Below are positions 3,196 to 41,584 of a stretch of DNA of 64,000 nt, piece by piece. The number at the start of each line of letters is the position of its first letter. The first letter of the stretch is position 1. The notes beneath the pieces are model-generated. The model saw only the letters and a program-made list of their open reading frames with translations. It had not been told where the DNA came from and made no database searches. The position numbers and the translations under genes were made by a program. Source of the stretch: Thozetella sp. PMI_491 (lineage: Eukaryota > Ascomycota > Sordariomycetes > Chaetosphaeriales > Chaetosphaeriaceae); the NCBI GenBank assembly GCA_021432635.1, contig MU270044.1, positions 247,556 to 311,555 on the forward strand, in the 5' to 3' direction.

Positions 3196-3197
3196 TA

Positions 3198-21232: not shown

Positions 21233-21933
21233 ATGAATCAACAAGTCGAAAATTACATGATCTCCATATTGGGCATAGGCGGAGTCGGGAAGCGCGGGCT
21301 AGAAAACCAATTTATTCATAGGACGTTTGCGCCGATTGTATGAGCCCTAGAAGTCCTTCGTCATCACTTGGGTATAATAAGCTAACAGGGTCGGCCTAGC
21401 CTGATCCGTTTGGCGATGAGGATTCACGGCAGATGTACACCATCGACGGCAAGCGATGTATCCTAGAGACTTTTCGGCACCCTCATGAATCAGAATACGC
21501 AGCCCTACGAGACCTAGCTATCCGGGAGAGCGGTGGGTTTATACTCGTATACAGCCACGTGTCGCCGGCCTCCTTCGCTGCAATCAAAGAATATTACAGA
21601 GCCATCGAGGCAGTTAAGAAGTACCGCACCACACACAGATTTATCCCAGTCGTTCTGGTTGGGAATAAGTCTGACCTAGTCGTAGAACGTGGCGGGTTGA
21701 AAAGCGAGGGCGAGGCGCTTGCTCAGGAGTTCCAGTGCAGCCATATCGAGACATCGGCACTAACTGGGATGAATGTTGACGAGGCCTTTTATGACGTCGT
21801 TAGATTAATCAGACAGCAAAAGCAGCTAGACATGGGCAGCCCCACGGGGCCCAATCAACCCCCACCAGATAATGGAGGAAGAAGAACGAGTTTGAAGAGG
21901 TGGCTCATGCGTATTGCCAGGCCCTGCCCGTGA
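21233..21933 (+). CDS. Ras-like protein with degenerate nucleotide-binding motifs
   Basis: Exon 1 is 21233-21337 and exon 2 is 21400-21933. The 62-bp intron (GTATGA, GCTAAC branch, CCTAG) gives 212 residues. The overall Ras fold is easy to follow: I-S-I-L-G-I-G-G-V-G-K at the N-terminus, then D-P-F-G-D-E-D-S at switch I, G-F-I-L-V-Y-S, V-G-N-K-S-D-L (G4) and E-T-S-A-L (G5). Key residues are lost. The P-loop Ser after G-K is Arg. The switch I Thr is replaced (D-P-T in Ras, D-P-F here). The G3 motif D-T-A-G-Q is R-H-P-H-E. So base contacts remain while Mg and phosphate contacts do not. The tail is basic (S-L-K-R-W-L) and ends C-P, with no CaaX box. It reads as an intact gene, probably a pseudo-GTPase, or else an early pseudogene. 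Confidence 0.75.
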
Positions 21934-23074
21934 CGCTATGCAGATAGATGAACCATGGATCTGGGCCCGAGGGGCGAGACGGCGGACGAATGACATGGGT
22001 AATTCCGCTCTCTATGGTAATAGCAAGAAAGGTCTCCTCGAATTCCTTTCGTTGGCTTGGGTGTTGGCGAGGCTGATATAGAAAAGTCGATTTCGAGCTA
22101 CAAAGCTGACGAGTTGCAAAATTGACTGCAGCTACCAGTGTCAGTACTGATGCCGCTATTATATTCGGTATCATCAACCCTATTTTCGCAATAAGACTTC
22201 TGGTTGTCTAACTATTCTCGTAGATGTCTACACCGGTGTATTCATATCAGTTCCCCGGCGGATTTGGAACGAACAGCAACGGCTCGAAGTTAGCATAGGC
22301 TTGTAAATGATGTTTGTGCGGGGCTCAGCGAGCCAGATGATCCCGAGTCAGTCAGGCAGTGGTAAATAGCATAGACCACACACACAATTCGGAAAAAAAC
22401 AACATACTTTCCCTCTCAATCAACGACGTCTGAGGCAAAGCAGAGAATACCCAAAAGCCCGCCACTGCAGATTTCCAACACGCAAAAGTGTTTTGATGGT
22501 AATAAAAAATTACACTCTTAGTACCCGCCGCCAGTCAAGTTGCCTTGCTAAATTATCCGTGGGCACCTGAATGACCCCAAACAATGCACGCCGATAAGAT
22601 TCTGGTGAGATACAAGTTGCGTCGTAGTCTTCTATTTAAGCCTACCTTAATTAGATCACGCTCTTATTGTGGCAAGATTGCAGTCACTCGACTTCTTAGC
22701 CAGACTGCCGACTAGATTGCAATGGATTTATATTGCCGCCATGCGTGTGGCAAGGCGGTGGAGCTCGGTCCTATGCTAGACCTAAGGCGTGCACCGCAGC
22801 GTGCGAGGAAAATTGTCCGTAACCGGGCAACATGCCCAAGGATCAGTTGAGGCTCTAAGGTAGTAGTTCATCTGTGCTACATCTGAGAACCATTATCAGG
22901 TTGGCAATCCCAAAAAAGAATTATTGAAGGCGCGAGATGCTGCCACTACCTAGTCACCAAATACTCTACCTTGTATCATGCTAGAGATGGATATTACTTG
23001 TGATGTACTTGTCACAAACTCAATAGTATACCACATAGCGAGAACGAGGTTGACATTGCATCTATCTCATAACG
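21934..23074. other. Gene-free stretch
   Basis: This is the shared 3' flank of the Ras-like and C2H2 genes. No supported frame, repeat or RNA gene is seen. Confidence 0.45.
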
Positions 23075-23843
23075 CTAGGCAATGACTTGGCGGAAACCCG
23101 GAATTGGGTCACCGATATTATCATGCTGAGTTCGGATATGCTCTTTCATGGCATATTTCTTGATCATTCCTTTACCACTGTCGAGAGAATGTTTGCAACC
23201 ATGATAGGGGCAAAATACCGCTTGGAGACTGGAGAGCGTCTCGGGGTGTTTCGCCTTCACATGATCCTTGCAGTCGTGTTTAAATTGGAATGACTTGCCG
23301 CACCCGGACACTGGGCAGGCATATGGCCGCGTATGTTTCTTCAAGTGCATGCTGAGAGATATTAGCAGCATGTAAGCGTTTTTGGTTGTAAGAACTCATA
23401 TACTTTAGATTGCGCCTCGCTTGGGGCCCTTCGAATGTTTCGGGGCAGCTTTCGCATTGCAAGACAGCCTGGGCTCCGGCAGCTCTTGAAGATTCCTGAA
23501 TGCCCTGGAGGCTAGCATTCGAATCATCGGCGCCGAGACTTTCTTGATGGGGTAGTGGTAAAGGAGTGTTGTAAATGGGATTGTTCTGGGTTGCCGTGGC
23601 CGAAGATTGGTCCTGCACTTCACCATCCTGCCCAGCAGGTTCAAAGGCCCAAGGATCAGGGCCCCAGACATACTCAGGAAGAGGACCTCCATTTCCAGAC
23701 GCGACCCAAGAAGGATCAACTGACGAATAGGGTGCGGTCTGTGTTGTGTTTGGATGTGTTGTGTTTGGATATGTTCTGTTTGGATAAGGTTGCTCCTTAC
23801 GTCCGGTGAAGTCCTGTTGTGTCGAACTAGTGATGAAAGCCTC
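23075..23843 (-). CDS. C2H2 zinc finger protein, N-terminus unresolved
   Basis: The last exon is 23351-23075. It joins through a 52-bp intron (23352-23403, GTATAT to CTCAG) to an exon open up to a TGA at 23844-23846. Three fingers are seen. C-E-S-C...H-L-K-K-H spans the intron. Then come C-P-V-S-G-C...H-V-K-A-K-H and C-P-Y-H-G-C...H-I-R-T-Q-H. The N-terminal region carries a short Y-P-N-x-T repeat, then Pro/Trp-rich and Gln-rich sequence, as in an activation or linker region. The long exon has no in-frame ATG, and none occurs between 23720 and 24065 on this strand. Translation must start in an upstream exon (an ATG near 24115 followed by a GTATGA donor is a weak candidate), or the start has been lost. 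Probably a DNA-binding regulator. Confidence 0.65.
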
Positions 23844-25298
23844 TCAGAGAAGTCCGGGGTAGGTTATTCCGCTGCTGGGAGTTATGGTCAAAGCGCAGCT
23901 GGGAAGTTCCACGGCCCCTAGAACAGAACAGGGAGAGAAAAGAAAACGGCTGGATGGGTGCAAAAGAGCGCCGGTTAGCAGCTACCAGAGCCGACCGTGA
24001 GGAAGGAAGAAGAGAAAAGAGAAACAGAAAACAAGAGGGATTGCCCTCTTCTTATAGACTCCAGTTCATACCCGCGAGACGAGGCTCGGAACAATTGCGA
24101 CCAAGGTGCATTTCATAAAACTAGGGATGATTGGCCCCGTGCCGTGCTATGCCATAAAATATGCAAGTGTCGTCACGGGGTAAGCGATGTGGCGTCTTGG
24201 CCAGCGTACTAGTGGTGCGTCTACGGTGCTATGCCATAAAATTTTGGCGCCCAGCCAATCATCCCATAAAGATCGTCAGCCAGGAAAGATAAGGTATATA
24301 CGCTGTCCACCTAAGCTGCTACGAGGTTGAACAGGTTATCTCATATTTCCTCGGAGGGGATATGTATATTAAGCTCCGAACAAAGTATGCACAGATGGGC
24401 TTGAAGAATTGCTCTTCCTGGACAATTTCAGCACCAGAAACTCGATCAATCTCTACACCATCATTTACTACCTGACTGGGTCGCCAGGTCAACTGCAGCA
24501 CTGCTAAGAGCAATCTCGACGCACTCATCGGCATATCCCTTGGTTGGAATGAAGTATCGCTTCCTCTTCGAAAGTTACAGTTGGCCTGGCGAACAAATTT
24601 GATGGCGGCTAGATGATTTGCTCTCAGAGCTTAGATCTTCGGTGTGAGTAGCTGCAGTTATGTTTGTTTTGCGCCTCCTATGGCAATTAATCATGAAGGC
24701 GATTATGTGGCATCAGCCTTGCTTTAGGTGCACAAGTATGCTACGATCTTTCCAATGGACAACGCTGACGTGAAAATATCTAAAGTTTTAAAGGTCTAGG
24801 TACGACGTTGATCATTCCTTTAAACCAATACTTCTATGAGTGGAGAAGTTCGTAATGTGGAGCGCAGATACCCCCTAGCCATTGATAAAATCCTCTTCGG
24901 AGTGACAAGACGGTAGAAGAGCAAGCGATACTTCATTCTTGCCAAGGGATAAGACGATGAGTTTCTCGAGACTGCTACAGGCGCCTTCGCCTAAATAAAC
25001 TCTCAAAGGCAGGATTAGTAAGTGGGCTTTACCAACTGTCAAGTTCTTGCAAGCTTGGTCCTTTTGCTCGAGATTATCAACAGCTTATCCAGGCTAGCTA
25101 GATTAAAAAGTTCAAGTGCGAAGAGCACAGTTTTTCAGCACTCAATACCTACATAATTCCACGTTACAGACTCGCTGTAATGCTGTCGTTGCTGACCGAG
25201 GAAACCCGAATGATGGCTTTGTGAATGGATCGTCTACGGCAAACAGATGTGTCTAGATGTAGCGCGACTTCCTGGGCTCATAGCGGAGTATAAATGTC
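23844..25298. other. Gene-free stretch, possible leader of the C2H2 gene
   Basis: The part nearest the C2H2 gene (to about 24070) is pyrimidine-rich on the minus strand and has TATAAGA near 24050. 24300-25298 shows fragments of protein-like words but no sustained frame. No family recognised. Confidence 0.35.
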
Positions 25299-27307
25299 TC
25301 AAGCTAGCTTTGCATCATAAAATTCGGCCAACCAACCTTGTATAGCATCCATTGACCTGTCTTGTGCGACCTTAACGCTGGGGTTCCCAAGGCCATACTC
25401 CATGGTGAAGTCAGTACAATGGTGCCCCCCCCTCGATCAAGAACACAGGAGCTTCGGGCTTCGAGGGAAGTGGTCCCCCCGGACGTATCGTTACCGACAC
25501 GCCAGCTTCCCGCCAAGGATCGAACTGGCTGGCTAGGCAAAGTGCATGTCAACACCTAATCCGCCAACCGGAAGTGTAAGAGGTTACTAACTCGTTGACC
25601 TACACCAAATGAGACGCGTTCATAAACCAGCCACCCGTCCTTTAGTTCAGTATGTCAACTGTTTTGTGCTTCGCTGAGCCGTATGTGTATTCGCCCTGTC
25701 GAGGGAACATGCGCTCGCATTGCGCCTGCCAATAGTCGGCCCCAACATGTCGGGACATAATGGTAGTCCGGCCTTCAGGCGCTTCTCTAGCACAAAATTT
25801 GAGCAGCTGTAGTCAATCGGATAATAAATTGTTTAATGGTCAACTTACGATGGATTCCACCAACCAAATGGAGTGTCGCAGATCTGCCAGAACCATGGTT
25901 GAAAAAAGACATCATCTGAAATCCAGTCTGTGTAGCGGGGACTGGTGATATTGTATGCTTCAAAGCAGCCCTGCGGTCCGGTTTCGTTATAGCCATAAAA
26001 GTTTACACAAACTATACCATAGTTAGCTGTATACGAGATTATATAGACTAGAGACAAGCTATTTTATGATGTGCAGACACTAACAGGTGGTAGCTGATTT
26101 GCCTTAAACTAAATATGGAAGTTGCGGAACGCCGTGCTTAATCCGACGCCCTCAGAGGGGAAATCTGTCACATTTGTGCGCTCAAGTGTGACTGGATCCT
26201 GAGTACCTTCTATAGTATCCTACATGTTCTAGACGGTAGTTGGCTGGTTGCTCTGCTATAAGTTAATGGCACTCTCTAACGCACTGTGGGTATAAGAGTT
26301 AGCTTCTCTATATTCCATATTCCCTGGCCGTTCGGATGGTAGCATACTTTCCAAAATTATCGTTATGATTAAGGGCCTCAAGTCTAAAAAGCGCCTTTAG
26401 GTCAAAAGTTTGCCTCTTGGAACCGGTGGACAGTATATTGTCTACGTAATCAATGATTAAGGCTAGATCTTTGCTGCAGTTTTGCGGTATACCCTTTTCA
26501 ATGGGGACAGCATACGCCCAATAGTCGTATATGGCTTCGACAGGAGCGCTGCTGGCGTGATACGCGGCAAATGTATCCGGTGTAAGAGATTTTATCCATG
26601 CCGTGATTGTACCAGCAAATGAGCAGCCGACGAGGACCCAAGGCTGTCTATAGGGTGGGTGGATTACCACGTCAGGTGCGTTACTGGGGCTTTTCGTGTC
26701 GAAGGGAAGCTGAACGGTTAGAGCAAAGTGCACCATGTCTTGGATTGCATTATCGAGATTGTGGTATTGCAGAGCCTTGGTGTCCTGTATCTCAAAAGGC
26801 GTTGAATCTCCGTAGTAGCGATCTACGCAATATCGATCAGTCGATTCCCTGGCCGGCGTGGCCTAGTATTTGCCTACGTTCGATAACAATAACTGCGGCG
26901 CCTAGCCTCTCGGCTAAGGCGCCAGAAAACTCGCTATTCGTCAAGTAGGCCGGCCAGTACCTATCCGCACGTATCTCACCACGTTAACGAGAACAACCTA
27001 GATTGTGTCAGTTGTCTTGTGTTTGGTCTCTTGGTTTAAGCTTTCTACGGCATCCAGGAGACCCAGGACCCGCCCAAAATCTAGAACTCCACCAATATCT
27101 TTGTGAGAAAGTCCCTAATTGAGGATCTGCATGGTCAAGTTGCTGAGAGAAGATTTCAAGACCTGATGTCGGATCATCATCAAATCGCTTATCAATTTCG
27201 ACCACAGCTGGTTTACAAGTGGACGGCAAGGGATGATAGGCATGAGCGGGCTGTACAAATAAAGCTCCACTGAGCCATGCACTACCGGCAAGCCAGTATA
27301 ATACCAT
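25299..27307 (-). pseudogene. Decayed S28 serine carboxypeptidase (prolyl carboxypeptidase-like)
   Basis: Reading leftward from the ATG at 27307: a signal peptide, then Q-Q-L-D-H-A-D-P and F-S-Q-R-Y-W, typical of the S28 N-terminus. A frameshift near 26980 separates V-V-L-V-N from G-E-I-R-A-D. An intron follows (GTAGGC, CTGAT, GCGTAG, at about 26825-26871), restoring E-H-R-Y-Y-G-D-S. The nucleophile region is G-C-S-F-A-G, then S-S-A-P-V and D-Y-W-A-Y. Stops follow at and after about 26308. Further on come N-F-Y-G-Y, W-F-W-Q-I-C-D, an intron with a GTAAGT donor, D-Y-W-Q-A-Q-C, another stop, F-D-P-W-R-E-A with the catalytic Asp, and H-H-C-T-D with the catalytic His reached only across a frameshift in a run of eight C (about 25425-25432). 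All three catalytic blocks are recognisable, but at least two frameshifts and several stops break the gene. Confidence 0.75.
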
Positions 27308-27812
27308 GGCCACTACCTATAGCCGATGGTGAGACTGAAATTTCCGTTGAAGGCAGTCGCACGTAGCGTGGAAAGGTAAAATAATGAGGACATCATTGAA
27401 GCGAACGAGCAGAATTTACCTCAAATATCTAGATTAGGCAGATCGGCGCAGGGCTCCTAATCCTACGGAGGGTGTGTATAACTAAAACATATGGGACAGA
27501 CAGCGCGGCGCTGTCTTAACCAGATTGCGGTATTTTTGCTATTGGATGGAATACGGACAACCGAAACCAAAGGAAATCAAAAGAATCCGGAAGAGGGGAA
27601 AGGCACATTGAGCGACCAGGGCATAAGTATATACTATAAACAGTTGAAGTCAAGATTCAACACTTTATACCTCCAGCTTTCAATTGAGTGTCAGAGTGGG
27701 TCCAGATAGCCCGGTTTGATTGGATAAAAATGGGGATCATGGTGGGTCTCTGTGGGTCTCTCCTGGGCGAAGGGAGGAATCAGGAATCGTAACCCCCAAC
27801 ATCGACACGGAT
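27308..27812. other. Gene-free stretch left of the EF-1 beta fragment
   Basis: Upstream DNA of the S28 pseudogene. A short direct repeat GTGGGTCTCT occurs twice at about 27742-27761. The region ends at the rearrangement junction near 27813. Confidence 0.4.
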
Positions 27813-27933
27813 ATTACAGATCACCATAGTCGTGGAGGACGATAAAGTCTCTCCTGACGAGCTTCTGGAGGAGATCCAGGAGTTCGACGACTACGTTCAG
27901 TCCTCTGATGTTATCGCCATGCAGAAGGTCTAG
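27813..27933 (+). pseudogene. Detached C-terminal coding part of eEF1B-alpha (EF-1 beta)
   Basis: From TTA-CAG at 27814-27819 the frame reads [13 protein letters not shown] and ends [10 protein letters not shown] then TAG. This is the conserved end of the EF-1 beta GEF domain, whose final M-Q-K-L/V lysine enters the Mg site of EF-1A. There is no EF-1 beta sequence to its left. The rest of the gene is on the other strand at 36004-35115 and lacks exactly this part. An ATG at 27730 could be spliced to it in frame (GTGGGT to TTACAG), but that is probably chance. Alone it encodes 38 residues and cannot function. Confidence 0.85.
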
Positions 27934-28195
27934 CCGATCAAACAATTATAGTACAACTTTGAGTCTGTTCCTATAAATAGAGCCGCAGCAGTCGGCCTGT
28001 GCGATAGAGACAGTCACATTTATCGAGGCGCAACTTGCACTGCAATGCTGGTGTTGATCGACGTGTATGTATGTTATGCTCGCCTTCGGCGAGGCTGACT
28101 TTGTTCCATTATTGCATATTGCATAGCCGCAGCCAATGGCATGCTGCCCGACCACCCCCGGTCAAGCCGCTTCACCATGCAAGCTCTGTCCCGTC

Positions 28196-30133
28196 TCACA
28201 TATCGTCTGTAAAGCAGCTACTACCTGTCCCTTCATGATTACCTACTTTGTGGTAAGTCCTGGTGACTATCCGTCGGCCTTCGGACTTTCCACGCGCGTG
28301 CAATTGGTGAGACACCGCTTCCTCGTATCGCTCCAGTTCCCTGCACTTCTCCTCGTATCTGACCACCGCCTGGTCACGTTCGTGATCTGCAGAGCTACGG
28401 GCAGAAATAGCCTTCTCCTTCTGCTCACGGGCCTCGCGAAGCATCGTGCGGAGCGTAGAAACTTCGTACTCTAGCTCCCCGTGCCCTCCCTCGTACTCGG
28501 TGACAGATTCGCAGACTTCCTCGTACCTTGCTTCGCACTCACGCAGCTTCTCACAAGCGCCGTCGTGTTTCTCAGAGATTGTGATGATCTCGGTGTTCAG
28601 AGTGACGATGCTGGCCTGAAGCCGCTCGACTTCCAAGTTCAAGTCGGCACACTTTCTGCGCGACTCTTCTCTCTCGCCTTCGATTCGCTTAGTGCGCTCC
28701 GTGAGATTATGCACCGTATTGGTTTTTTCTTTCAGCGTCGACTCGACACGGCATAGAGACTCTTGCAGGAAAATGACCTTGTGGTGATGCTCCTCGCACG
28801 TCTTGCACACTTGGTGGTAATCCTCATCGAGGCGCTCCTTTTCAATAACCAAGAGACGAATCTCTTCGCGGGTCTTGGTCAGGGCCTCGTGCAGCTCGGT
28901 CTTCTCGATTTCAATGAGTCTGATCTCCTCTCGAGTAGACGCCATCTCGCGCTCGCAGTGCTCCCACTTCATCTTCCACTTGCCGCAGCGATCCTCGGCA
29001 CCTTCCCACCTGCCTTGCTTCTCATCGAGCTTGCGCTTCAGCTCCTCAACTCTCTGAACCAGCTCTTCTCTCTCGGATTCTATTGTCGACATGGATTCCT
29101 TTAGTTTCTGCGTCTCACGCACTTTCTTTTCGTATCTTTCCGTCATTTCCTCCGCCTTCCGTGAAACTTCGTCAAACTTGTGATTGCACTTGCGGACGTT
29201 CTCCTCGAACTCGCCTTTCTCGTGCAACCACTCGTGCTTCCCTTTCCTAAACACTGATAGAGACTGTTTCAAGGATGCGAGCTCCTTCTGTGTGATCTCG
29301 TGCTTGACGGTGAGGTCGGTGTAGCTTCTATGCAACTCGGCGTGTTTTTGGTTTAGGCCTCGAAGGTCACCGTAGTGTTTCTCAGCATCTTTTCGAGCAT
29401 AGTTGCACTCCTCTTCGCTAGCGACGAGCCTCAATTGGGTGTCCGCTAGGGTCCTCTTCACCTCCTCATGCTCTTCATAAATACGCGTGACAGTCTCCTT
29501 GTATTCGTGAAACTCGCGGCGGGCATCGTCTAGTTCGTTGTCTCGCTCGGTGAGCTTTTTCTTGTACTCCGAGACGCTGGCAATTGCGGCAGTTATCTCA
29601 AGGCGAAGCTTGCTAGTTTCCTTCTTCCGTTCTTCGTGTTCATGATGGTGGTGATGTTGCTCTCTCTCCTTCCGTGAGATGGTTTCGGTGTATTCTTCAA
29701 GCTGATCGTACATCCTCTCCATGTCGACGATGCAAGACTCGCGCTCGGAGATGAGTTTAGTCCATACCTCCTTCAAAGAGGCGCTCCGTCGAGAAATGTT
29801 GGTCATGAGCTCCATGAGGGCAAAGAACTCGCCCTCGGCCTGTGCTGTAAGTTCCTTAGATGCCCAGGTATGACGTGACCGTACGATGCTGCCGCTGAAT
29901 CGTCGACTTCTACGTCGTCGGGACGTAGTACAGGAGCTTGGCATTGAGCCGGTTGGGCTACCAGGACGAGAATAGTGTCTCTTTGGTAGGTGGAAATGCT
30001 CCTGAGAGTAACATTCGTTAAGATCCCCTGGATTTAGTGAATGGATAGATTGATGATACATATTGAACCCATCTCCACTGTGTCCGATTCCGGCCACACT
30101 GGCATCGGTGCTGGGCATGGTGCAGGTCTCCAT
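28196..30133 (-). CDS. Long coiled-coil protein
   Basis: One open frame of 645 residues from the ATG at 30133 (context GCCATGGAG). The frame stays open to 30310, but TATA-like sequence lies in that extension. The first 100 residues are Ser/Pro/Arg-rich with an R-R-R-R-S-R-R patch. From about residue 110 to the end there are near-continuous heptads rich in Glu, Lys, Arg and Leu, including a His-rich stretch (H-H-H-H-H-E-H-E-E). No motor, kinase or membrane domain is seen. Such proteins act as scaffolds or filament-forming factors. The family is not recognised. A GTAGGT-TTACAG pair near the 3' end might remove the last residues and give another tail. It lies within the inferred inverted segment. 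Confidence 0.75.
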   Translation of the reverse strand: METCTMPSTDASVAGIGHSGDGFNMYHQSIHSLNPGDLNECYSQEHFHLPKRHYSRPGSPTGSMPSSCTTSRRRRSRRFSGSIVRSRHTWASKELTAQAEGEFFALMELMTNISRRSASLKEVWTKLISERESCIVDMERMYDQLEEYTETISRKEREQHHHHHEHEERKKETSKLRLEITAAIASVSEYKKKLTERDNELDDARREFHEYKETVTRIYEEHEEVKRTLADTQLRLVASEEECNYARKDAEKHYGDLRGLNQKHAELHRSYTDLTVKHEITQKELASLKQSLSVFRKGKHEWLHEKGEFEENVRKCNHKFDEVSRKAEEMTERYEKKVRETQKLKESMSTIESEREELVQRVEELKRKLDEKQGRWEGAEDRCGKWKMKWEHCEREMASTREEIRLIEIEKTELHEALTKTREEIRLLVIEKERLDEDYHQVCKTCEEHHHKVIFLQESLCRVESTLKEKTNTVHNLTERTKRIEGEREESRRKCADLNLEVERLQASIVTLNTEIITISEKHDGACEKLRECEARYEEVCESVTEYEGGHGELEYEVSTLRTMLREAREQKEKAISARSSADHERDQAVVRYEEKCRELERYEEAVSHQLHARGKSEGRRIVTRTYHKVGNHEGTGSSCFTDDM

Positions 30134-31630
30134 GGCGATGTGTTTTCGAATCGCAGAGATAGGGATAGACTTCGTGGTTAAGAGAAATCTTATATCAAGA
30201 ATGTTAAACTGATAAGTGTAGAGTGGGAAAGGGTATTGTGTGTATTTGGGAATCTCTATATACATAGCCCTTGGTCTAGGACCATGCATCTTCCCAGCTC
30301 TTGATGACACTAATTTCTATGCTTCAGACGGCCTGCAAAGATGTCTCAACTCTAGCGCCGTGCATGCCAATACCTTCCCCATAGAGCCTTTTCGTTTGTT
30401 TAGCTTGCTCTTAGAGTAATCTTATCCTTCTGGACAAGGCGCACCTGTTATCTAATTCGACGCCCCGAATACACTTCACGTCATTGTAAATTTACTTTTC
30501 GCACGTTTAGCTAGATTCCTGCACTAGCCCTTCTGCTTTCGAGTTGAGCTCCACAGCTATAGATCGCCTCTCATTTTATGGCTTTGTCCTTCTGGGCTAG
30601 CGTTCTATAGTCATCATTACCTTCTCCGAGAGGGAATGCTCTTGTGTCTTTGCCGCTCCACAAGCATGCAAAACTTCGTTGAAGGTAGCTTACTATTATC
30701 TCTTTGCTTCGGGTGTTGACATTTCGAACTGAGAGGGATGAATCGCACAGAAAGGCTGGGGCTCTGTGGAAAGATGCAAGCAATCGGAGCTAATCTAATG
30801 CGATAGTTAGTCGAGATAGCGAACATAACCCTTGCCCAGTAATAGTTCGTGCATTTCGCAGCTTCGTCTTCGACTTCTGGCTCGCCATTTTTAATGCCTG
30901 CACCCCCTCCCCCCCTTGAATGCCATATCCGCCAGAATCTCCTCGCCACCCCCTCCGACGACCATGACCTGCTGGGCTTCTCGATTGACGCGCTCCAGGA
31001 CTCGCCCGTCGACCATTTGGAGATTAGCCCCCCACTCGCCCAATGACAGATCTGAGGGAGATGTAGAGAGATCCTAACTGCGTGTCTGCTCTACTATGTA
31101 CACCAACAGCTCCAATAAAGCTTGAGTCGATTCGATCTGCCTACCCATATCACTGAATTTAGACCGAATTACTTAGTTTTTAACTAGCGTCTTGCCGAAG
31201 GTCATTCGCGTCGTAGCGTGTGAGTAGGCGTCCACGGCGCAACCCCGTGCGAGTCAGAAAGAAGTTGTTGTTAGCCAAACACGCTCGTGCCCCGAAGTCT
31301 TAGCCGAATTAGTCACATAATCATGGACTAGAGGCGCCTTCTACACGTACTCGACATGACGACCCGTAAGGCATCATTTCCCTGCCAATGGGATTCCAGA
31401 CTAGGATCTCGACATCGTCGAATACGATTTAAGTCGAGCCTAAACTAAAACCCCATTAGTTAGCATAAGAGTAGCCAACTAGAAACTACTTTTCATCTGT
31501 CCAGAAGTCGCAGCCTAGAAATTAAGTAGAATGGGAACCAAGAGTGGACAACTTATCGCTCGCACTACTGGAGCTGCAATGGTCTATCATTTAATTATAT
31601 ATGCTAATAAATGCTTCATCCTTATATTCT
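30134..31630. other. Gene-free stretch with one short GC-rich frame
   Basis: A plus-strand frame at 30894-31046 (50 residues, starting M-P-A-P-P-P-P-L-E-C) has coding-like composition and may be the remaining first exon of a lost gene. 31050-31630 shows nothing recognisable. Confidence 0.35.
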
Positions 31631-32778
31631 TCAACTGGTGATGTCCAATATCATCTTTCCGACGTTCTTCCCCGCGTACACATCCAGCAGGACTGCTGGC
31701 GCATCCTCTAGCTTCCCCTTGATGACGGTATCTGTACGCTTCAGTTTACCTTCATCAAGGAGACGTGCCATGTCCTTCCATAATGCCTGTGCCCCGTCGA
31801 GATAGTTAAAAACATTGACGCCTTGCATGGTGCTGCCGGTCAAAGCAAGCTGAAAGTAGTTCTATCGCATTTGACATTTGTTAGAAATATTAGACCCGGT
31901 AAATGTCTCGGGATTGGCATCAGTAGAAGGTCCTACCGTGATTCCGTATCTCTCTGTGGCATTATAGTTCCCAATATCGCCACAGATGGCGATACGCCCG
32001 TTGCTGTTTAGCTTCGCGAGTGCCATTTCAAGCATCTTGCCACCCACTGCGACATCTCGTTAGCTTGATCAACCGAGGCTATTTAAAAAAGGAGGTTGAA
32101 TATACCGTTGTCGAAGTAAACATCAAGCCCGTCCCCGACTGCTGCGCCGAACTCCTGTTCAAAATTGGGGCTCTTGTAGTTGAGTGCCACGTCGAGTCCC
32201 AGCTCCTTCAGCCATTGGCACTTTGCATCACTTCCAGTGATTCCAATCACTCTGGCGCCATTAATTTTGGCGGTTTGTGCCGCGATACTGCCCGTGGCTC
32301 CAGCAGCTGTGCTGACCACGACAGTCTCCCCCGCTTTCGGGCGACCAACTCGAAGCATGCCCTCGTAGCCGGTCAGACCAGTCAGGCCTAGGACACCCAT
32401 TGCATCACTCAGCTTGCCGAATTTGGGCGCTTCGACCTTGCGGAATGTGTCCGTGGTGATAACAGCAAACGAGCACCACCCGGCCCATGCAGTACCAATG
32501 TCTCCCGCCACAACATCAGCTGCGCGGGAAGCAACGACACGGACAAGACCGTAGCCCCCCATGACGTCGCCAAGTTTCAGGTTCATGTAGCCACCTCCAT
32601 CTAGCCAGAAGCGCATGGCCGGATCCAAGGACAAGTACAACACTTCGACTAGGATCTGTCCATCTTTGACATCAGCAGCTGTAGGCGCCGGAACCACGCG
32701 TGTTTCGAAGACCTGGTCAGGCACAATGTCCCCGTGAGGTCTGGCCTTGATGATAATTTGCTTGTTTTGAGTAGCCAT
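31631..32778 (-). CDS. Medium-chain NAD(P)-dependent reductase (prostaglandin-reductase/CurA-like)
   Basis: Exons are 32778-32106, 32046-31937 and 31861-31631, 337 residues. The introns (59 and 75 bp) have good sites and restore frame (Y-F-D-N-V-G-G-K and Y-G-I-T-N-Y-F). It is a zinc-free MDR enzyme. The N-terminal GroES-like part includes L-S-L-D-P-A-M-R and G-G-Y-G. The cofactor fold carries A-A-G-A-T-G-S-I-A, then I-T-G-S-D-A-K. D-V-Y-F-D-N-V-G-G follows, a signature of the leukotriene B4 dehydrogenase/alkenal reductase group. These enzymes reduce the double bond of alpha,beta-unsaturated carbonyls with NADPH. There is no catalytic Zn ligand set. A Zn2Cys6 regulator lies about 750 bases upstream and is read in the same direction, so it may control this gene. 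Confidence 0.87.
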
Positions 32779-33526
32779 TCTGAGAAGTAGTGTATGATAA
32801 TAGAGATGTCTGATGGTGCCGAGTGATAATATGAGTTGCAGACTGGAACGGGAGCGCCTTTTTATAAGATCGTCTTGTCGGCGGTGGTTTATATGGACAG
32901 CATTTCAATTATTAAGCTGCGTAACGCACCATGTCCCATTCCCATATCCAGAGAGTTGTTGCAATACTCTAGCGACGCACGTCTTTCAAGAAACCACTCA
33001 TCCGTTGAGGTAATACACATTATTCGCAAGCTGCGCCAGTACTTCCGGGGTGGTGTGTTGCGGTGGGGCCTTCCGCTGTTGAGAGCAGGGGTTTCCGCTC
33101 CGCGAAATGCACTGTGCCTAGTTAGCCTAGCTCGCTAGGATGATGACATTCTAGCCGCACGGAGACCGCCTTCATTCCATTGGGTTAAAATACGGATATC
33201 ACTGCTCCCGTCATTGCTGATATCCCGCGAAGCAGTTTGAAAGCTACTCGTGGCTTCGAGAAAAAAAACGAAAGAGGTAGGAAAGTCTTCCGGCTGAAAA
33301 TTTCCAATGTTCATTGTTATTTTATCCACCCTCCCTAGCATAGAAAGGGGGGAGGGAGGGAAAGTACGTTATTTTACGAAAATGTAGTTTCAATAGTAAG
33401 TTAACCCACCATCCAACGGCCTTGCATTAGACCTAATGCATCCCTTTAATCTTCCCAGTTAGAGCCCACTCGAGTCAGTCTTTTGTTAAACCAGTCAGCA
33501 GTGAGAAAGTATTCCCTTGTAATCAT
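32779..33526. other. Gene-free stretch
   Basis: Promoter region of the MDR gene and 3' flank of the Zn2Cys6 gene. A G/A-rich tract (GGGGGGAGGGAGGG) lies at about 33347-33361. No gene seen. Confidence 0.45.
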
Positions 33527-34741
33527 TCATTGCCAGCGCTGCAGCCTCTCTGCACCAAAAGTAGTTTCCACTATCATCTTTGTAAACTCGTCTATATCCA
33601 CCGGTCGGGAGTCAGTGAAGAACTTCTCACAGGCATACCTCTGAACAAACCCGATGTCGACTTCCGAGCAGAAGCTCCCCCACTCGAAAGCCGTCTGGGC
33701 ATCCCAAACTCCCTGCCGCGATGTAAACATTACGCTCCCTGGGCACGGATGCCAGCCCTCCTGGAGGGTGAGATAAATCGCCTGAAAGCCCGTGGCCACC
33801 AGCCACGTGCGGCGTATGCTTTCAGCTAAGATCCATGTGTGCCACATCATGTCCATGGGGCCGTGCGGGCCAAGAAGGCTGTTTTTACCAGCCTCCTCGA
33901 GGTCGAGAGGATCAATGGCTGCGGCCATCCGGCCAAGGTCTCGGCTGCTGTTTTCGAGCATTTGCATAGCCAAGCGATCAAGGGCGGCAATCCGTGCCTC
34001 CGCCTGATGACGTGAACGTATGTCTCCATCCAAGAGACCGATGGTTTGGTATACCAACAGGGCATGGACTTGGGCGAGCTGCTCCAGCGAGTCGACGAAT
34101 TCCGACCCGACGGCACTCTGAGGAGACTCTGAGCTGCCGGGGTGGATGCCTTTTTGCATCAACAGCTGTCTCGCTTGGTCTTCTACAACGCGAAGGATCA
34201 TGTGCTTATTCTCCTCCGTTCGATTGATGTAGCCTGACAGGGTGGCGTAGGCGATCTGTACGCAGGACGGGAAGCGAGCATGGTAGAGTTGATGGTGTAT
34301 GAACTGGTTCCTGCCGCTCTTGACCCATTCTTCCAGCCACTTCTGTAGCCTTGCAATGTGACAACTTAGGGTGACGGTGCTGAAACGAGATGCTTCAATC
34401 GCAGGCTGATGGTTGATTTTCCAGGTGTCTGGCTGGAGAAACCAAACTGGAGTGGAGGTGCCGTGGGATGCAAAGTCGAGCTCCAAAGGAACACCAGTTG
34501 CGTCTCTCAGGAGCAGATCCAGATTCGACGGCTGGCCGTTGTGCTGTTCAAAAACCATTGGCACATCTTCTTGGGTTGACAATGCCTGGTCTAACAAAAT
34601 GAAGTGGCCCTGTTTAGGTGGAGGATAGACGCAGTCTATGCCTTTGTCCATGCACCGCTTGCATGATGGCAAGTCTCGGCCGCAACGTCTCTTCGCCTTT
34701 GCACAGGCATCACACACCTTGGCCTCCGTAATACCCGCCAT
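33527..34741 (-). CDS. Zn(II)2Cys6 transcription factor
   Basis: An intronless frame of 404 residues from the ATG at 34741. An in-frame ATG at 34846 would add 35. The zinc cluster begins at residue 10: C-D-A-C-A-K-A-K-R-R-C, then C-K-R-C and the sixth Cys in D-C-V-Y-P, so all six Cys are present with normal spacing. After it, the protein has a short linker and an alpha-helical regulatory region without a clear fungal_trans signature, ending in F-G-A-E-R-L-Q-R-W-Q. The helix-rich part with R-R-T-W-L-V-A-T-G-F and W-G-S-F is like regulators beside metabolic genes. It binds DNA, probably CGG triplets, in the nucleus. The target is likely the downstream MDR gene, by position only. Confidence 0.85.
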   Translation of the reverse strand: MAGITEAKVCDACAKAKRRCGRDLPSCKRCMDKGIDCVYPPPKQGHFILLDQALSTQEDVPMVFEQHNGQPSNLDLLLRDATGVPLELDFASHGTSTPVWFLQPDTWKINHQPAIEASRFSTVTLSCHIARLQKWLEEWVKSGRNQFIHHQLYHARFPSCVQIAYATLSGYINRTEENKHMILRVVEDQARQLLMQKGIHPGSSESPQSAVGSEFVDSLEQLAQVHALLVYQTIGLLDGDIRSRHQAEARIAALDRLAMQMLENSSRDLGRMAAAIDPLDLEEAGKNSLLGPHGPMDMMWHTWILAESIRRTWLVATGFQAIYLTLQEGWHPCPGSVMFTSRQGVWDAQTAFEWGSFCSEVDIGFVQRYACEKFFTDSRPVDIDEFTKMIVETTFGAERLQRWQ

Positions 34742-35114
34742 TCTGATGTTGGCTAGCTCTTTCCACGGAGCGTCTGGTGTTTGACCTCGGCCGTCAAAGA
34801 TGTGCGAGTGTTCGAAGGGGCCTAGCGCATTTGTCATCCAGCACATTTGTCATCGGCTTAGCAGCAACTGGTCATAGATTGGCTCCCACGGCTCCCCTAA
34901 CTTGGCGGGAGCTATCCAGTTTGGGTTAGCTTCCACAGCATGCGGCCCCGCTCTTGCCTGGGGCTCCGCGACGAAACAGAGCCTGGAGAAGCATCAAAGC
35001 AATTCATAGAAGTCGGTACGGCGGGCTAACCCGCCCTTACCGACATGGCGCTGCTTTCGAGTTGAGAAAGAATTGCTTCCAAGCCAGCTGGGCCCCACTT
35101 CCCAACCAAAGAAG

Positions 35115-36004
35115 TGTAATTTCTGGATGCCAAAACCGATGGGCACTAGCTTAGAAGCACCCCACACCAAACCATCCTTCTCGATGCCGCGCACCAGAGT
35201 TTCAAGAGCAGTGAGATCCGTCGTATCATCTGGGCATTGGCTATTAGTATCCAAACCTCAAGCCATAGGGTCATGAGTCACGTCCATACCCCAAGGCTTG
35301 ATATCAATGATTACGACCGACTTGGCGGCGGGCTTGGTCTTGCCCTGGTTCTTTTTGCGGTACTCCTCGAGACGCTGCTCACGAAGCTTCTGCGCAGCCT
35401 CATCTTCTTCGTCGTCGCTATCGAGGAGATTTACGCCGTCTTCAGCATCCGCAGCAGCTGATGTCTTGGCCGGGTCGGCGATGGCCTCAGAAACGTCGGG
35501 GCCGTAGGCTGTGTAGGGCTTCGAGGCGTCGCCGGGTAGGGTCGGGAACTGTTCCTCGATGGCAGCAATTTGTTTGTACCAACGAAAGACCTCCGGATAT
35601 TTCGTGGCGTCCGGCGTAGAATTTAGCGCCTGGAAGACGGCGACGTCGGCCTGCGAGGCAGCATCGCTGTCGAAGAAGAAATCATCAGCGCTTCTGATCT
35701 CGTCGCCATAAGAGGACAATAGTTGAATGCCGTGTCACTCGTAAAGCCCAGAAATAATAGTAACGATTATCATGAATGCTTGGAGTGTTTCCTGCGTTGC
35801 TATATGTGCGTCTCAAGGCCACTAGACAATACGAAAAAACACGAGTTGCAGGGAGGAGTGTGATGAGTCACATACCTTGCGATGTACAAGCGGGTAGTGA
35901 GCCAGCCATTAACATCTGCCAACTTTAAATGTCAGCACAAGATGGTGTGCTTTACAGAGCTTACCAGCAAGGCCATCATCAGTCGAAAAGTCGGCAAACC
36001 CCAT
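35115..36004 (-). pseudogene. Truncated eEF1B-alpha (EF-1 beta) gene, exons 1-4
   Basis: Exons: 36004-35965 (M-G-F-A-D-F-S), 35915-35876, 35666-35290 and 35229-35115. Introns of 49, 209 and 60 bp all have canonical sites and keep frame. Marks are S-Q-A-D-V-A-V-F, R-W-Y-K-Q-I, the acidic linker [26 protein letters not shown] and G-F-G-I-Q-K-L. EF-1 beta is the nucleotide exchange factor of EF-1A in translation elongation. The match ends inside the next codon (CAG in the family, CAC here). The frame then runs through unrelated sequence for about 40 residues to a stop at 34994. The missing end, needed for exchange, lies at 27819-27933 on the other strand. The exons themselves look undamaged, so the break is recent, or it is an assembly fault. 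Confidence 0.87.
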
Positions 36005-37081
36005 CTTACGGGACCAGGGAGTGACAGGAAGCAATCTGCAGTCATCAAGGCCAAGGAGGCCGAAAAGGTGTGTGTTGCCTCATTTACTTTTCTTAAGAGT
36101 TCTAATTTTATCTACCTTGGCATATATTCGACCTTGGGACCTTGTGGACCTTGTGGGCCAATGTGGCTCTTTTGTGCCTTGCGCGATCCTTCTTGATGCC
36201 TGGTGCACTTGCCAGGTACTTTTGTCCATGAAGCCAGGCATAGCACCTACCTTAGCTCTTCAGCTGCACTTAGTGAGTGCAACGTACTGGAACGAAGTCA
36301 GGCACAAGCATTGAATCGCGCAAATCGCAAAGCAAAAAGATCGACGGGCTGCGTGCGCGGAAGCATTTAGCTAATATAATGAATCTTAGAAAAAGCCAGC
36401 AGATCTTCTCCGTACGACCTGAGAGATAACCAACCCGTAAACCCCAATGCAAAGCCCCCAATCAACCTATGCAATTCACAGTAGAAGCGTACAGCTAAGT
36501 TCCCCTGTAGAGAGATATAACTTTATATAGTTAAATATTACTTAATAGTACCCTAGATAAGATTCACGCTTTATTAAGTATATTATAAAGCATAGGTAGA
36601 GGTGACCTTTCGGCACGATCATATTATAGCTTTACTATGCTTTAGTTACCAATGTTTAAGAGAGAACTTATCACGTGGGTGGCCGCGATTCTTGAAGACC
36701 AGGCGCATTTAAGCCGCCTAGAACGAAAAAGCTAAGGTTGCATCTTGTCTCACCGGCATCGGCTGCATTTTCTAGCAGCATCCAACTATATTGCTACATT
36801 CGCAGTTTATTACTCGTTGCAGGGAATCACGCACTCATAAACCAAACAGGCGCAAAACGCTGACTCATTGCCCATTCTACCAACAGGGTTTTAATGGCTA
36901 TTATATATACCCGTACAGGGAGCAGAGAAGTATATGTTAGACCCGGCTAGCTGTTCCGTGGGCGACTAAATAAACTGTTCATCATAGACCTCCTCCTAGA
37001 AGCTGCTCCTGACACGCCTGCATCCGTGGCGAACGAGTTATTTAGCTCCTTGTCGCAATCTCCCACCTTGGTCAGCCCGAG
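36005..37081. other. Gene-free stretch
   Basis: Shared upstream region of EF-1 beta and the acetate transporter. 36480-36660 is AT-rich. The small frames 35882-36314 overlap EF-1 beta exon 1 antisense and are not supported. Confidence 0.45.
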
Positions 37082-38187
37082 ATGGACACACAGCTGCCGG
37101 AAGGGGCTAGTGCTACTAACAATGCGGTTGATGTCCATCTTCAGAAGGTTCCTTTTAACGCCAAGTCCAATGTCGACAACCCATTCCATAAGCTAATTCT
37201 ACATCCTAAAAATGTTGCGCACACGAGAGCAGACAAGCAATTAGGTAACCCAACACCGATGTCTGTTCTCCTTCTGATTAAATATGCCTGAATAGACATC
37301 TAATTATGATGTAGTGCGTTGGCTGGATTCCTCATATCCCTATCTCAGCTGTCTTGTGACTTTATGGGATTTAGAGGGGCCGGTACTAGCGGCGCCGCTG
37401 CGACGTATGTTACGGGTTTGCTAAATATGTTATTGTTTGAGTGCTAGGACAAATCACGGCTGATTGCCAGACAGAGCTTCATACATTATCTTTGGCGGTG
37501 TCCTACAGCTTCTAGGCGGCGTCCTCGAATGGTCACTCGGACACACTTTTTCATCGGTGGTCTTCTGCACCTTTGGCGCATTTTACCTCTCTACTGGGCT
37601 CGATTTTATACCTTCTCTTAACTCGTGGGGGTCTTTCGCTCCCGATGGTAGCCCGGCCGTAGCTGGACTAGCTAACCCGGCTTATAATGCCAGCGCAGGT
37701 AAGCTAGACGAAGACCTTTATTGACTCCTTATTGGCTTCCCCCATTAATGGCCGGATCAGCTAACAAGGATCTGAGGCTTCTTCCCGCTCTGGATGGGAG
37801 TTCTGTGCTTCGTATATATGGTCGCTGCGTTAAGAACAAACATTTGCTTTGTCGTCATCTTTTTCTTCCTAGTCGTCGGCCTGTGTCTCAAGACGGCTTC
37901 AGTCTGGCTGCTAGCTATAGACTATACTGGATACAGTGATCCGGCAAAAAGGCTGAACACGGTAATGCAATACCGGTACCGCGATTGGAAGAACGCAGAG
38001 GTACTAATCAACTACTCAGGCTACCGGAGCAATGTTTTTTGTCTCAGCTATGGTCGGCTGGTATGTCTGGACCTCGGCGATCCTAGCCGCCGTCGACTTT
38101 CCGATGCAAATTCCCATTGGTGACTTGAGCCATGTGATAAGGGGCCGCTCTGAGACGAGGGAGAAGTCAGAATCCAGTAAAGCATAA
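37082..38187 (+). CDS. GPR1/FUN34/YaaH family acetate transporter
   Basis: Five exons: 37082-37260, 37315-37428, 37475-37698, 37777-37961 and 38020-38187, 289 residues. Marks of the family are the N-terminal N-P-F-H-K, H-T-R-A-D-K-Q-L-G-N-P-T-P, then F-M-G-F-R-G-A-G, I-I-F-G-G-V-L-Q-L-L-G-G-V-L-E-W, F-G-A-F-Y-L-S, W-M-G-V-L-C-F-V-Y and the last helix ending in I-P-I-G-D-L-S. Six membrane segments are expected. Such proteins import acetate or related anions, or export ammonium, at the plasma membrane. Donors of introns 1 (GTCTGT) and 2 (GTTATT) are unusual, so the edges of exon 2 are less certain. The others are canonical. The gene appears intact. Confidence 0.82.
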
Positions 38188-39321
38188 GGTCCAAGTAATG
38201 GCGGACAGAGCGCTAAGGAGGCACAGACACAGGTAAATGCCCTATAGCAGGTTAGAGGCTAGGGAGTTAGATAAAAGTCTGCACAAGTCTAGGAAATGAC
38301 AAAGATATATGGAAATATAGTTACATAGTATCGTAATGCTTGTGAGGGTTATCGCCATAGCCAAGCTAGCATAACCAAATTTGCACGTTTAGCTGACACA
38401 ACTGATATATGAGCTAATATGTGACCTTCGAAAGTATCCACGTACGGCAACCAGGCCTAGTCGATCGTCGTGTAAGCCATACGTTGTACAAAACTAGATA
38501 CAGAGCTGTATTAGGCTATAGCTAAGGAAAACAGATACTATACACGCGATGGATATAGCTTATATAGCTGGCTTAGCCTGAACTAGACCAGGAGTCCTTC
38601 CTAATTTGGAAAACCTAGTCGACAGGATGCTATAATTACCCGGCAGGATTCACGCTCTAGATGTCGCATTCCTAGAACCCGACGTATAGCAGCGCCGTTA
38701 CGGGACCCACAAGGTTGTATATGCGAAGACACAGAGGAAATAATTCCGAAGCAGGATGTGGCATGGTTCGATCTGCCATGGTTAAAGCAGGATCGCGCTA
38801 AGCCACATGGATAGCCTTCAAAAGCTGCGGGATAAGTTACAGTTTCATTCATTCCAAGTCTAAGTAGAGGAGAACTTCACACTGGGTCCATGACTGAAGA
38901 ACGCTAGACATAACTGCTTGCATTAGGCACGATGAATTGGCGGTGATAGCCGGCGCGTAGATAAAAACCAGCAGTCAGTAAACCATATTCAGGTGAGGTG
39001 AAATATTTGCCACCTCCATAGGTTCAGTGTCTCTCTTGTCACGGAGATACTAGTCAAGACCACAGTACGAATGCTAGAATTGCTTAATAGTAGATTTAAG
39101 GAGCGTGTAGATATTTATTTTGAATATAGCGCGAGCCTAGGCAGCACTTTCTCACAACCAAGCTGGTTAAATGCATTGTGTACGACGTCAAAGAATGTGA
39201 CCCCTGTATAACAAACGAATGACATGACTCTGCCCAACTCAAAGGGCCTATTCAGATTCTGCTTGGAACGCTCCGAGATTGGAGTCACGAGGTAATGAGC
39301 TACCACAACCCCAGACGTCAT
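38188..39321. other. Gene-free stretch
   Basis: AT-rich around 38280-38560, with many TAG/CTA words. No supported gene. The minus-strand frame 38601-38852 lacks any recognisable feature. Confidence 0.45.
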
Positions 39322-39830
39322 TTAGGTACCAGGAGCGCACTGTCCGGCATTGGGGTCGGACCTAGCTTTTATATCAGCCTCTGATATCCGATGGATTTCA
39401 ACCAAGAGATGTAAGAGACTTACGTGTACTCCCAGTTGGCATAGCCAGTTCTCCCCCCATTATCACAGTTGTTGATCTCTTTTTGAAGGCCATCATAGCA
39501 CTCAGCGGCGGCGATCGAACGTGCCCCGTTGTTAGAGATCAGCTTAAGGGTGAAATCCACCTTTTTGGTGCTATCTAGATTATAGCACTTGGCGCGGATG
39601 TCGCCGGGATTGTAGGTGCCCGAAAAGTCGGTATTACACACCAAAGCGGCGAAACTCTGCGCGTACGCCTTGTTTGCACCCCAGTTCACACCACCTGTGA
39701 AACAGTTCCGCTTGTTGAGGCTCAAAAGAGAACCGCCGCCGGTGTCCCCGGCGATCCGTTCCTGAAGAGCCATGCCAGAGACCGAGGCAAAGGCTGTAGC
39801 CAAGGTAGCGATGAAAATAGCGGCGTGCAT
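39322..39830 (-). CDS. Small secreted cysteine-containing protein
   Basis: Exon 1 is 39830-39424 and exon 2 is 39361-39322. The 62-bp intron (GTAAGT to GCTAG) rejoins at a Thr codon and gives 148 residues. The signal peptide begins M-H-A-A-I-F-I-A-T-L-A-T-A-F-A. An upstream in-frame ATG at 39875 would disturb it. The mature protein holds six Cys (N-C-F-T-G-G, V-C-N-T, K-C-Y-N, E-C-Y-D-G, N-N-C-D-N-G-G, G-Q-C), enough for three disulfides. The tail reads D-P-N-A-G-Q-C-A-P-G. I know similar secreted proteins of unknown role in plant- and insect-associated ascomycetes but cannot name a family. It is extracellular and possibly effector-like. Confidence 0.75.
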
Positions 39831-41584
39831 ATTACCGAGTTTTAGGCCAACTGATAGTAGAGAAGATATAACCACGTGTGTAGAAACAGGCCGTTTTGTT
39901 CAAAGTATCAGAGACTTGTCCTCCTAGAAGTTGTGTTGGGTTCTGTGTTTGCGCGCGAGATGGACCTCTTTATACTCGCAGGTTGGTGCCCTTAAACGCC
40001 GACAGTTCGGTGACGACATCTCGGGGGCAAGGATGCTCCGTCGTGCCGCTGTGCAGGTTTTCCTGCCTGACTCATGTCTGAGTGCGTAGTTCGTAATGAT
40101 TTCCCGATGCAACTGCCCCCGGCGTCCTACAAATTCTCAACCATGGATGCTGCATCCTCTGCCTGGGGAACGGAAGCCTGGTTCCTTCGGAAGGCATCCA
40201 TTTTGACAAAGATAAAGTGATACTGGAGCTAAATTGTCCGGCCCCCACTGACACCTCCAGGTGTGTGATTGCCACTCACTAGATCGGGTATTTTGTGCGA
40301 GGAAGGAAGCCAGCACCGGCAGCATGGACTCTGATGCATCCTTTCTGTTCATATGTATGTAGGAGTGCTTGAAACAACAACATCATACTGGTATGATCTG
40401 CGACTGCATGCCTCTCAATAGAAAGACTATTACTACGACCATTTCTTGGGGACGTTTATTTGCTTTTGGATACGTTACGTTGAACCACAACGGCCGAACC
40501 TATCTCCTTACCAGAAGCACTCGGCTGTTTCACCAACAATATGATGTATGGCTGGGATAAGCTCAGATAATTTTCTTGCACAAGACTCTACATACTTTTT
40601 GCATTTGTTGGATCTCTAGGATCTCGGGGTTAATCCTCTTCTCGGCCTAATTTTGGTCGGGATCCGCGAGTGACGTCCTTTAGCATCAGCCGAGCTCCCG
40701 ACTAAGTAACTCATGCAATTTAAAGCGAGGGCAAGATTTGGATTCCTGGCTTTGTGCCGTGTCCAAGCAACAACCCAGGAACTAGAAAGCAAGTTTCTAC
40801 CAAGGAGATGCATTTGTGGCTGTGGCGCAACGGATTCGCTTTATCTACAACTGGCCCGCTTATACTGATCTACAGAGCTCTCCCTAGTCCGGTCTACAGC
40901 TGGGGTTGGTGAACTTTCTTACCTTAGTATCTCCTTAAGGAAACGATGTGACCAATAGTATCTACCTGCTAGCGGCAGCCTAGTGGCGATCGAGCCTATT
41001 CGCGGGACTAAGCTAGTCCATATTTCGCGCTAGGGCCGTTGGATAGAATCCGAAGTAGTGCGACAACTATTAGACCAGTACACATCTGCTAAAGAAAATA
41101 TGATCTGCAGTCCCGCGCCTCTCTCAAGCGTACAACATGTTTGTGAGTTTCGTGATTCGGATTGTTTTCTGAGGAGCTTCAAGTTACACCCACTATTCTT
41201 GGGTTATGCACGATTCTTTAGGCAACCGCATAGACTAACCAAAGTTCCCAAAATCTCCAGGAATCGCCCCCAATGCAATTGCAATCCCCTTTAGGCCAAT
41301 TCAACCACCTTCGGGTCACCGATTGTGGCAAACCTGAGACACGGGGGACGAACTAGACTCTGCATGACGATAGACTCTAAAGTACCTTGGCTAGCTCACG
41401 TCTCTGGAGACTAAGAGGCAGTTAGAGGTCATAAATACTTGCTTGTTGCCCTTCTTTTTTGAAAGTCCATTGAGCATCGCATCGCACTCTACCTATTTTC
41501 AAAGCATTAAACCTCCCTATTCTACAGGACTCGCAGCAATCATCTTCTACCAACCCTAGTCAAACCACCTCCGTTCAAGTAACC
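39831..41584. other. Gene-free stretch
   Basis: Upstream DNA of two divergent secreted protein genes. TATA-like ATAAATA lies at about 41431, upstream of the rightward one. No other gene, repeat or RNA seen. Confidence 0.4.

Follow-up and report, generated by a model that had tools for sequence, protein, structure and literature searches.

The stretch of DNA considered here (the window) covers 64 kb, C30:247556-311555 in the 72.3-Mb, 157-contig genome of the filamentous ascomycete Thozetella sp. PMI_491, and harbors a gene for elongation factor 1 beta (EF-1 beta) that is divided into two pieces on opposite strands, with a transposon lying directly beside one of them. The 5' piece is located on the minus strand and is composed of four exons, which are supported by an open frame, GT..AG introns, and identity to the gene model P0121. 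Exon 1 occupies 35965-36004 with its ATG at 36004, exon 2 (35876-35915) is preceded by a 49-bp intron, exon 3 (35290-35666) holds the acidic region and the start of the exchange domain, and exon 4 (35115-35229) is broken after the codons K-L plus CA. All three introns (49, 209, and 60 bp) are bounded by GT..AG, and the frame stays open for 190 codons up to ...G-F-G-I-Q-K-L, which is followed by CA and then by CTTCTTTGG. In the public gene model P0121 (230 aa), 40 non-homologous codons and a TGA stop are appended to the 5' piece (34994-35116, minus strand). The gene model that belongs to the window itself is listed for Thozetella sp. PMI_491 as GQ53DRAFT_723059.

The 3' piece is found on the plus strand, where the sequence from 27813 reads ATTACAGATCACC and positions 27817-27933 encode 38 codons, Q-I-T-I-V-V ... 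A-M-Q-K-V, terminated by a TAG stop. Of the 88 positions of the Pfam profile EF1_GNE, the 5' piece covers 2-49 and the 3' piece 49-88, and the 5' piece is additionally matched by EF-1_beta_acid; its named best matches are EF-1 beta, the others being unnamed proteins with the same domains. The homology to EF-1 beta therefore extends along both pieces, and complementary halves of a single domain that meet end to end cannot reasonably be put down to chance. The initial annotation of this DNA had stated that the minus-strand exons stop inside a codon at 35115, that the missing C-terminal part begins at ATTACAG at 27813 and ends with M-Q-K-V and a stop, and that flipping the intervening segment joins the parts in frame, K-L and then Q-I; this observation proved exact to the base. 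With its exchange domain distributed over opposite strands 7.3 kb apart, the split gene can no longer specify a complete exchange factor.

A scan of the whole genome with EF1_GNE retrieved three places, namely the two split pieces and, on contig C51, an almost complete domain that covers profile positions 10-88 within a single exon and 2-88 in the whole protein. The C51 gene consists of three exons with a full 228-aa frame, adjoins an AICARFT/IMPCHase gene, and encodes a protein (P0001) identical to GQ53DRAFT_797384. A 49-bp intron near the start of the split copy (35916-35964, GTAAGCTC...TGGCAG) is missing from the C51 copy. The suggestion in the initial annotation that a single-copy, essential gene had been broken thus falls, since a complete EF-1 beta is present on C51, whereas its alternative that an intact copy exists elsewhere proved right in the genome-wide search. 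These results show that the split gene is a divergent second EF-1 beta, whose 5' piece shares 66% identity with the intact protein, and that the working copy is intact on C51.

The codon alignment of the split and intact copies displayed identical residues at 126 of 189 positions in the 5' part and, with the stop codon left out, at 29 of 38 in the 3' part. For the 5' part, nonsynonymous (dN) and synonymous (dS) divergence were 0.21 and 1.45, a dN/dS of about 0.15; for the 3' part they were 0.11 and 0.61, a dN/dS of about 0.18. Third codon positions accounted for 102 of 165 and 12 of 19 changes, respectively. The low dN/dS and the predominance of third-position changes in both parts indicate that the paralog was maintained for a long time before the break. 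In a tree of 46 rows, comprising 44 homologs hand-picked from 186 proteins together with P0001 and the split 5' piece, the split copy has a terminal branch of 0.77, far longer than any other (median 0.084). Grouping it with the intact Thozetella copy alone was not rejected by the approximately unbiased (AU) test (p-AU 0.457), nor was a grouping that adds the three metagenome relatives nearest to that copy (p-AU 0.709), the tree of the latter arrangement lying 9.18 log units above that of the free search. The split copy may accordingly be a lineage-specific, fast-evolving duplicate, and our reading of these comparisons is that the second gene was probably duplicated long ago, evolved faster under selection in both halves, and was broken late.

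The two junctions define an inverted segment of 7,296 bp (27819-35114). The left junction carries ATTACA at 27813-27818 (plus strand), which is at once the transposon's right direct repeat and the start of the EF-1 beta 3' piece, and the right junction carries ATTACA at 35115-35120 (minus strand), which is furnished by the gene's own K-L-Q codons and is followed by CTTCTTTGG. Exactly one ATTACA is present at each junction, and the shared sequence is these 6 bp and nothing longer. In both pieces the hexamer is supplied by the codons AAA-TTA-CAG, while the intact copy has CTC-CAG and no ATTACA at that place. Comparison of the window with itself at an E value of 1e-5 revealed no repeat pair, inverted repeats included, that links the junctions, and 34800-35114 had no further match in the genome when 34800-36400 was used as the query. 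The simplest arrangement, and a supported one, is a 7.3-kb inversion in which each junction carries a 6-bp repeat. The initial annotation had proposed this inversion and its 6-bp duplicated junction, and one ATTACA does stand on each side; it missed the element at 22515-27812, and the 6 bp are also the direct repeat of a transposon family, not just the scar of a staggered break.

That element is a transposon copy of 5,298 bp (22515-27812, plus strand) with paired ends and exact termini, whose left direct repeat is the ATTACA at 22509-22514 (plus strand). The sequence ATTACACTCTTAGTACCCG begins at 22509 with zero mismatches on the right strand and in the right order, so that the 5' terminus agrees with the family at 19 of 19 bases, and the 3' terminus agrees at 23 of 23. 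About 350 bp of the 3' region (27471-27818, plus strand) can be aligned to other copies in the genome, with 72.9-86.0% identity in eight matches longer than 300 bases, the closest relative in the assembly being 86% identical. The element contains a Pfam match to a fragment of Peptidase_S28 (26311-26736, minus strand). It is thereby shown that a transposon of an ATTACA-associated family directly abuts the left junction.

Members of the family share fixed ends, ATTACA|CTCTTAGTACC... and ...CATCGACACGGAT|ATTACA. Their arms are inverted repeats, neighbours are arranged head to tail, and the cargo varies. When the genome was searched with 27000-28200, 32 places were retrieved, 22 of which end at 27816-27819, and the aligned copies have a common 3' end, ...CATCGACACGGATATTACA, beyond which they diverge. 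A 19-base pattern for the 3' end (at most 2 mismatches) was found at 26 places including the window, as compared with 1 for the reversed control; exact ATTACA terminates 21 of the 26, a pattern that itself includes ATTACA and hence selects for it. Three 3' ends abut the 5' end of a next element, and beside them the other terminus begins with (ATTACA)CTCTTAGTACCCGTGTCGATGTTGGGCCTTCC..., whose arm is the inverted complement of that of the 3' end. The 5' terminus was encountered at 20 places genome-wide, and its 17-base start (at most 1 mismatch) at 9 places including the window, against 0 for the reversed control. Within the 42 nt before the collected 5' ends, exact ATTACA occurs in 8 of 21 cases (background 0.45%), a count that retains one probable false match (L047).

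The 37 collected 3' ends were also paired with 24 collected 5' ends. Eleven of the 37 have a 5' partner on the same strand, in the right order and within 25 kb, where 0.15 would be expected by chance, and the controls with wrong order or opposite strand gave 0 each. Nine pairs, the window's included, are spaced at 1.3-10.3 kb, one at 21.3 kb, and one at 19.6 kb, the last skipping a nearer 3' end. One complete copy (L092 on C91, L092:144-4336; 4,181 bp) has ATTACA at both edges and carries a gene with a Tle1-like phospholipase domain in two open reading frames (ORFs) as apparent cargo, and another (L093 on C67; 1,299 bp) is bordered by ATTACG and ATTACA. At C9:1236805-1236834, two head-to-tail elements (L039 and L087) have a single common ATTACA between their inverted arms; judged from its layout, this shared junction looks like the crossover site of a tyrosine recombinase. 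The EF-1 beta breakpoint coincides with the core of an apparently site-specific family of mobile elements.

These features can be combined into a scheme in which the order before the inversion would have been left flank, ATTACA, element, ATTACA, and CTTCTTTGG..., with an unbroken EF-1 beta paralog facing the element. The ancestral continuity would then read ...GGTAATAAAAA-ATTACA-CTTCTTTGG..., whether or not the element was present. The K-L-Q codons of the paralog would have supplied an ATTACA inverted relative to the core at the right edge of the element, and a reciprocal exchange inside ATTACA, between element edge and gene, would have flipped 27819-35114. Afterwards the right core of the element would have been joined to the EF-1 beta 3' piece and the 5' piece to CTTCTTTGG, and the number of cores would have been conserved, three before (left edge, right edge, and gene) and three after (22509, 27813, and 35115). 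The fixed 6-bp repeat, the inverted arms, the tandem elements sharing a core, and the conserved cores suggest that a tyrosine recombinase, presumably of the Crypton or Starship kind, made the exchange. We therefore favor, with somewhat better than even confidence, the account that the divergent EF-1 beta paralog was inverted by exchange at ATTACA cores with the abutting element, probably through a tyrosine recombinase. The same final map is also obtained from other orders of events, either by insertion of the element into EF-1 beta first or by inversion first and a later arrival of the element.

Several observations weigh against this account. The ancestral order would be a reconstruction from one genome. 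The copies are divergent, 13 of the 21 collected 5' ends have no exact ATTACA within 42 nt, and for 26 of the 37 3' ends no matching 5' end lies within 25 kb. The 5' end in the window matches the family strongly over 19 bp only and weakly beyond, and the region 22300-23000 has no other copy in the genome. No recombinase gene was recognised by Pfam among the element ORFs scanned. The genome does contain DUF3435 at four loci (C12, C74, C28, and C22) and two Crypton-like loci with NDC10_II followed by GCR1_C (C10:1376424-1378196 and C18:734881-736606, with in-frame stops in the NDC10_II match), and none of these six is situated at a listed element end. The element termini were also absent from the flanks examined, which comprised those of two of the four DUF3435 loci and of both Crypton-like loci, the downstream flank of the C10 locus amounting to 363 bases near the contig end.

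The same junctions could have arisen by microhomology-mediated repair, in which two double-strand breaks, one at or near the edge of an old transposon and one in EF-1 beta, were joined in inverted orientation through the shared ATTACA with the element as a bystander. Such an origin, a serious rival although a less likely one, accords with the mere 6 bp common to both junctions, with the divergence of the window copy, whose enzyme may have been inactive for long, and with the lack of any recombinase linked to the family; it does not account for the exact coincidence of the break with the terminal direct repeat of that family, ATTACA occurring just 16 times on both strands of the 64-kb window. 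An artefact, which the initial annotation had raised as a possible inversion of the segment by the assembly, is scarcely credible. Assemblers do not normally invert at 6-bp repeats, and such an error is unlikely because the junctions share just 6 bp and no repeat pair links them; moreover, the element copy into which the left junction runs has no relative in the assembly closer than 86% identity.

Another interpretation would have both parts still working, with the 5' part encoding a shortened protein that ends in a new tail of 40 aa, so that purifying selection would have acted since the break. Although the 5' frame has no internal stop, its splice sites are intact, and the gene model P0121 exists, this is very improbable. 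Conservation of the 3' part is much the same (dN/dS 0.18 against 0.15) even though this part lacks a start, which implies that much of the conservation predates the break, and the 40-aa tail is non-homologous read-through sequence. The penultimate lysine of EF-1 beta is needed for exchange in yeast, and it sits on the other piece. An improbable route as well, if less so, is one-ended or alternative transposition by a DDE transposase, whereby the right end of the element would have entered EF-1 beta, duplicating 6 bp of target, and the remaining DNA ends would have been joined, as in the inversions generated by maize Ac. The inverted-repeat ends of the family agree with it, and the maize inversions each carry a matching target duplication at the termini of the transposable element (PMC8225341). 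An identical repeat sequence at many sites is nevertheless unusual for a DDE element, the right junction has no recognised transposon end where the maize cases have one per breakpoint, and two ATTACA would be left at the right junction unless they had collapsed, while one is present.

The affiliation of the family was considered against the established transposon classes. Helitrons produce no target duplication and end in CTRR at the 3' side, and this class was rejected because ATTACA borders the window copy and L092 on both sides; the 3' end of the family is ...CACGGAT. A long terminal repeat (LTR) or solo LTR, suggested by a 347-bp repeat ending in CA, was discarded on the unequal 5' limits of the copies and the lack of a second copy in the window. 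The unequal 5' limits would suit a 5'-truncated long interspersed nuclear element (LINE), but some of the 3' ends are paired with distinct 5' termini; reverse transcriptase was not evident in the frames of four copies, which were read by eye with no profile search. A generic search for target duplications beside 16 copies, in which ATTACA was counted as part of the element, returned one 5-bp match only. A Starship was also rejected, no DUF3435 captain being present at any listed 5' end.

Among the known systems, the fungal Cryptons (CryptonF) mostly have 6-bp terminal direct repeats that are taken as recombination substrates, and in the same account (PMC3212892) tyrosine recombinases are said typically to use inverted arms around a core of 6-8 bp, non-autonomous Crypton derivatives being known. 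The ATTACA family resembles them in its 6-bp direct repeat, which borders the window copy and L092 as ATTACA and L093 as ATTACG/ATTACA, in its inverted arms, and in having copies without a recognised recombinase. It differs in that Cryptons are described there (PMC3212892) without terminal inverted repeats, whereas this family possesses them with an asymmetrical spacing between core and arm, and in that the two Crypton-like loci of the genome lack its termini in the flanks examined. The Hephaestus Starships are reported to have the targets TTAC(N7)A and TTACA(N5)AAT, short direct repeats, terminal inverted repeats, and cargo genes (PMC12153272). The core TTACA is common to both, and the ATTACA family also carries cargo, namely the gene with the Tle1-like phospholipase domain and the peptidase fragment. 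Its nine close pairs measure 1.3-10.3 kb, in contrast with the tens of kb of Starships, no captain lies at a listed 5' end, and the bases that the Hephaestus motifs require farther downstream do not stand out: in 26 3' flanks, 2 of which are rows in the wrong orientation, the A required by TTAC(N7)A occurs in 6, and the AAT of TTACA(N5)AAT agrees in 11, 6, and 11, position by position.

Inversion by a mobile element's own enzyme has a precedent in Thermococcus, where the tyrosine recombinase of pTN3 inverts chromosome segments between attachment (att) and non-att sites (PMC5495485). That system is archaeal and its enzyme was demonstrated in vitro and in vivo, while the EF-1 beta inversion is known from its outcome in the sequence. 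The maize Ac/fAc inversions are alike in having breakpoints at transposon ends with matching short repeats (PMC8225341), and they are distinguished by 8-bp target duplications, a DDE transposase, and a transposon end at each breakpoint, as opposed to one fixed 6-bp sequence and a transposon at one breakpoint in Thozetella. Inversions and other rearrangements are described as enriched in or near Starships (PMC12289983), and the reference list of that paper names an inversion polymorphism involving giant mobile elements; these are regional associations, in contrast with a junction resolved to the base and a small element. In searches of one open-access library, no eukaryotic transposon with a tyrosine recombinase was found to invert host DNA at its core. 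We raise tentatively, as a generalization that is doubtful at present, that a fungal tyrosine-recombinase system with small, cargo-bearing ATTACA elements might also recombine an element edge with solitary chromosomal cores and thereby invert host DNA conservatively, splitting and re-wiring genes, as illustrated by the cut EF-1 beta paralog and by a Zn(2)Cys(6) regulator placed behind its promoter. The puzzle of a broken essential gene is thereby replaced by the question of whether fungal tyrosine-recombinase transposons reshape chromosomes through exchange between their cores and host sites. If they do, the core sequence should be found at inversion breakpoints in such genomes and an element at just one side of each, a pattern that can be counted in any pair of related assemblies. 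The locus is best regarded as an ordinary gene at an unusual breakpoint, a real observation that is partly explained.

Three ORFs on the minus strand are contained in the inverted segment. The one at 33527-34846 encodes a Zn(2)-Cys(6) transcription factor (Pfam), that at 32083-32778 a zinc-binding dehydrogenase (ADH_N_2 and ADH_zinc_N), and that at 28196-30310 a protein of 704 aa with sub-cutoff Pfam matches only, which we interpret as a coiled coil. The ATG of the transcription factor (34846) is placed 268 bases past the junction on the same strand as the EF-1 beta 5' piece. Over 33527-36004, the EF-1 beta promoter and first exons are now directly upstream of, and co-directional with, the Zn(2)Cys(6) ORF, and from this arrangement it is possible that the promoter has been captured by the regulator.

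Elsewhere in the window, a search of 20000-40000 with Rfam gave no match at gathering scores. A plus-strand ORF of 166 aa at 21433-21930 matches positions 42-161 only of the 162 in the Ras profile and represents a Ras-like gene or a fragment of one. The region 2717-3200 is a near-palindrome, with 71% identity to its reverse complement across 508 aligned columns. Finally, an ORF at 39423-39875 displays a match to the glycan-binding domain Y3 above the cut-off together with a weaker match to a fungal lectin.

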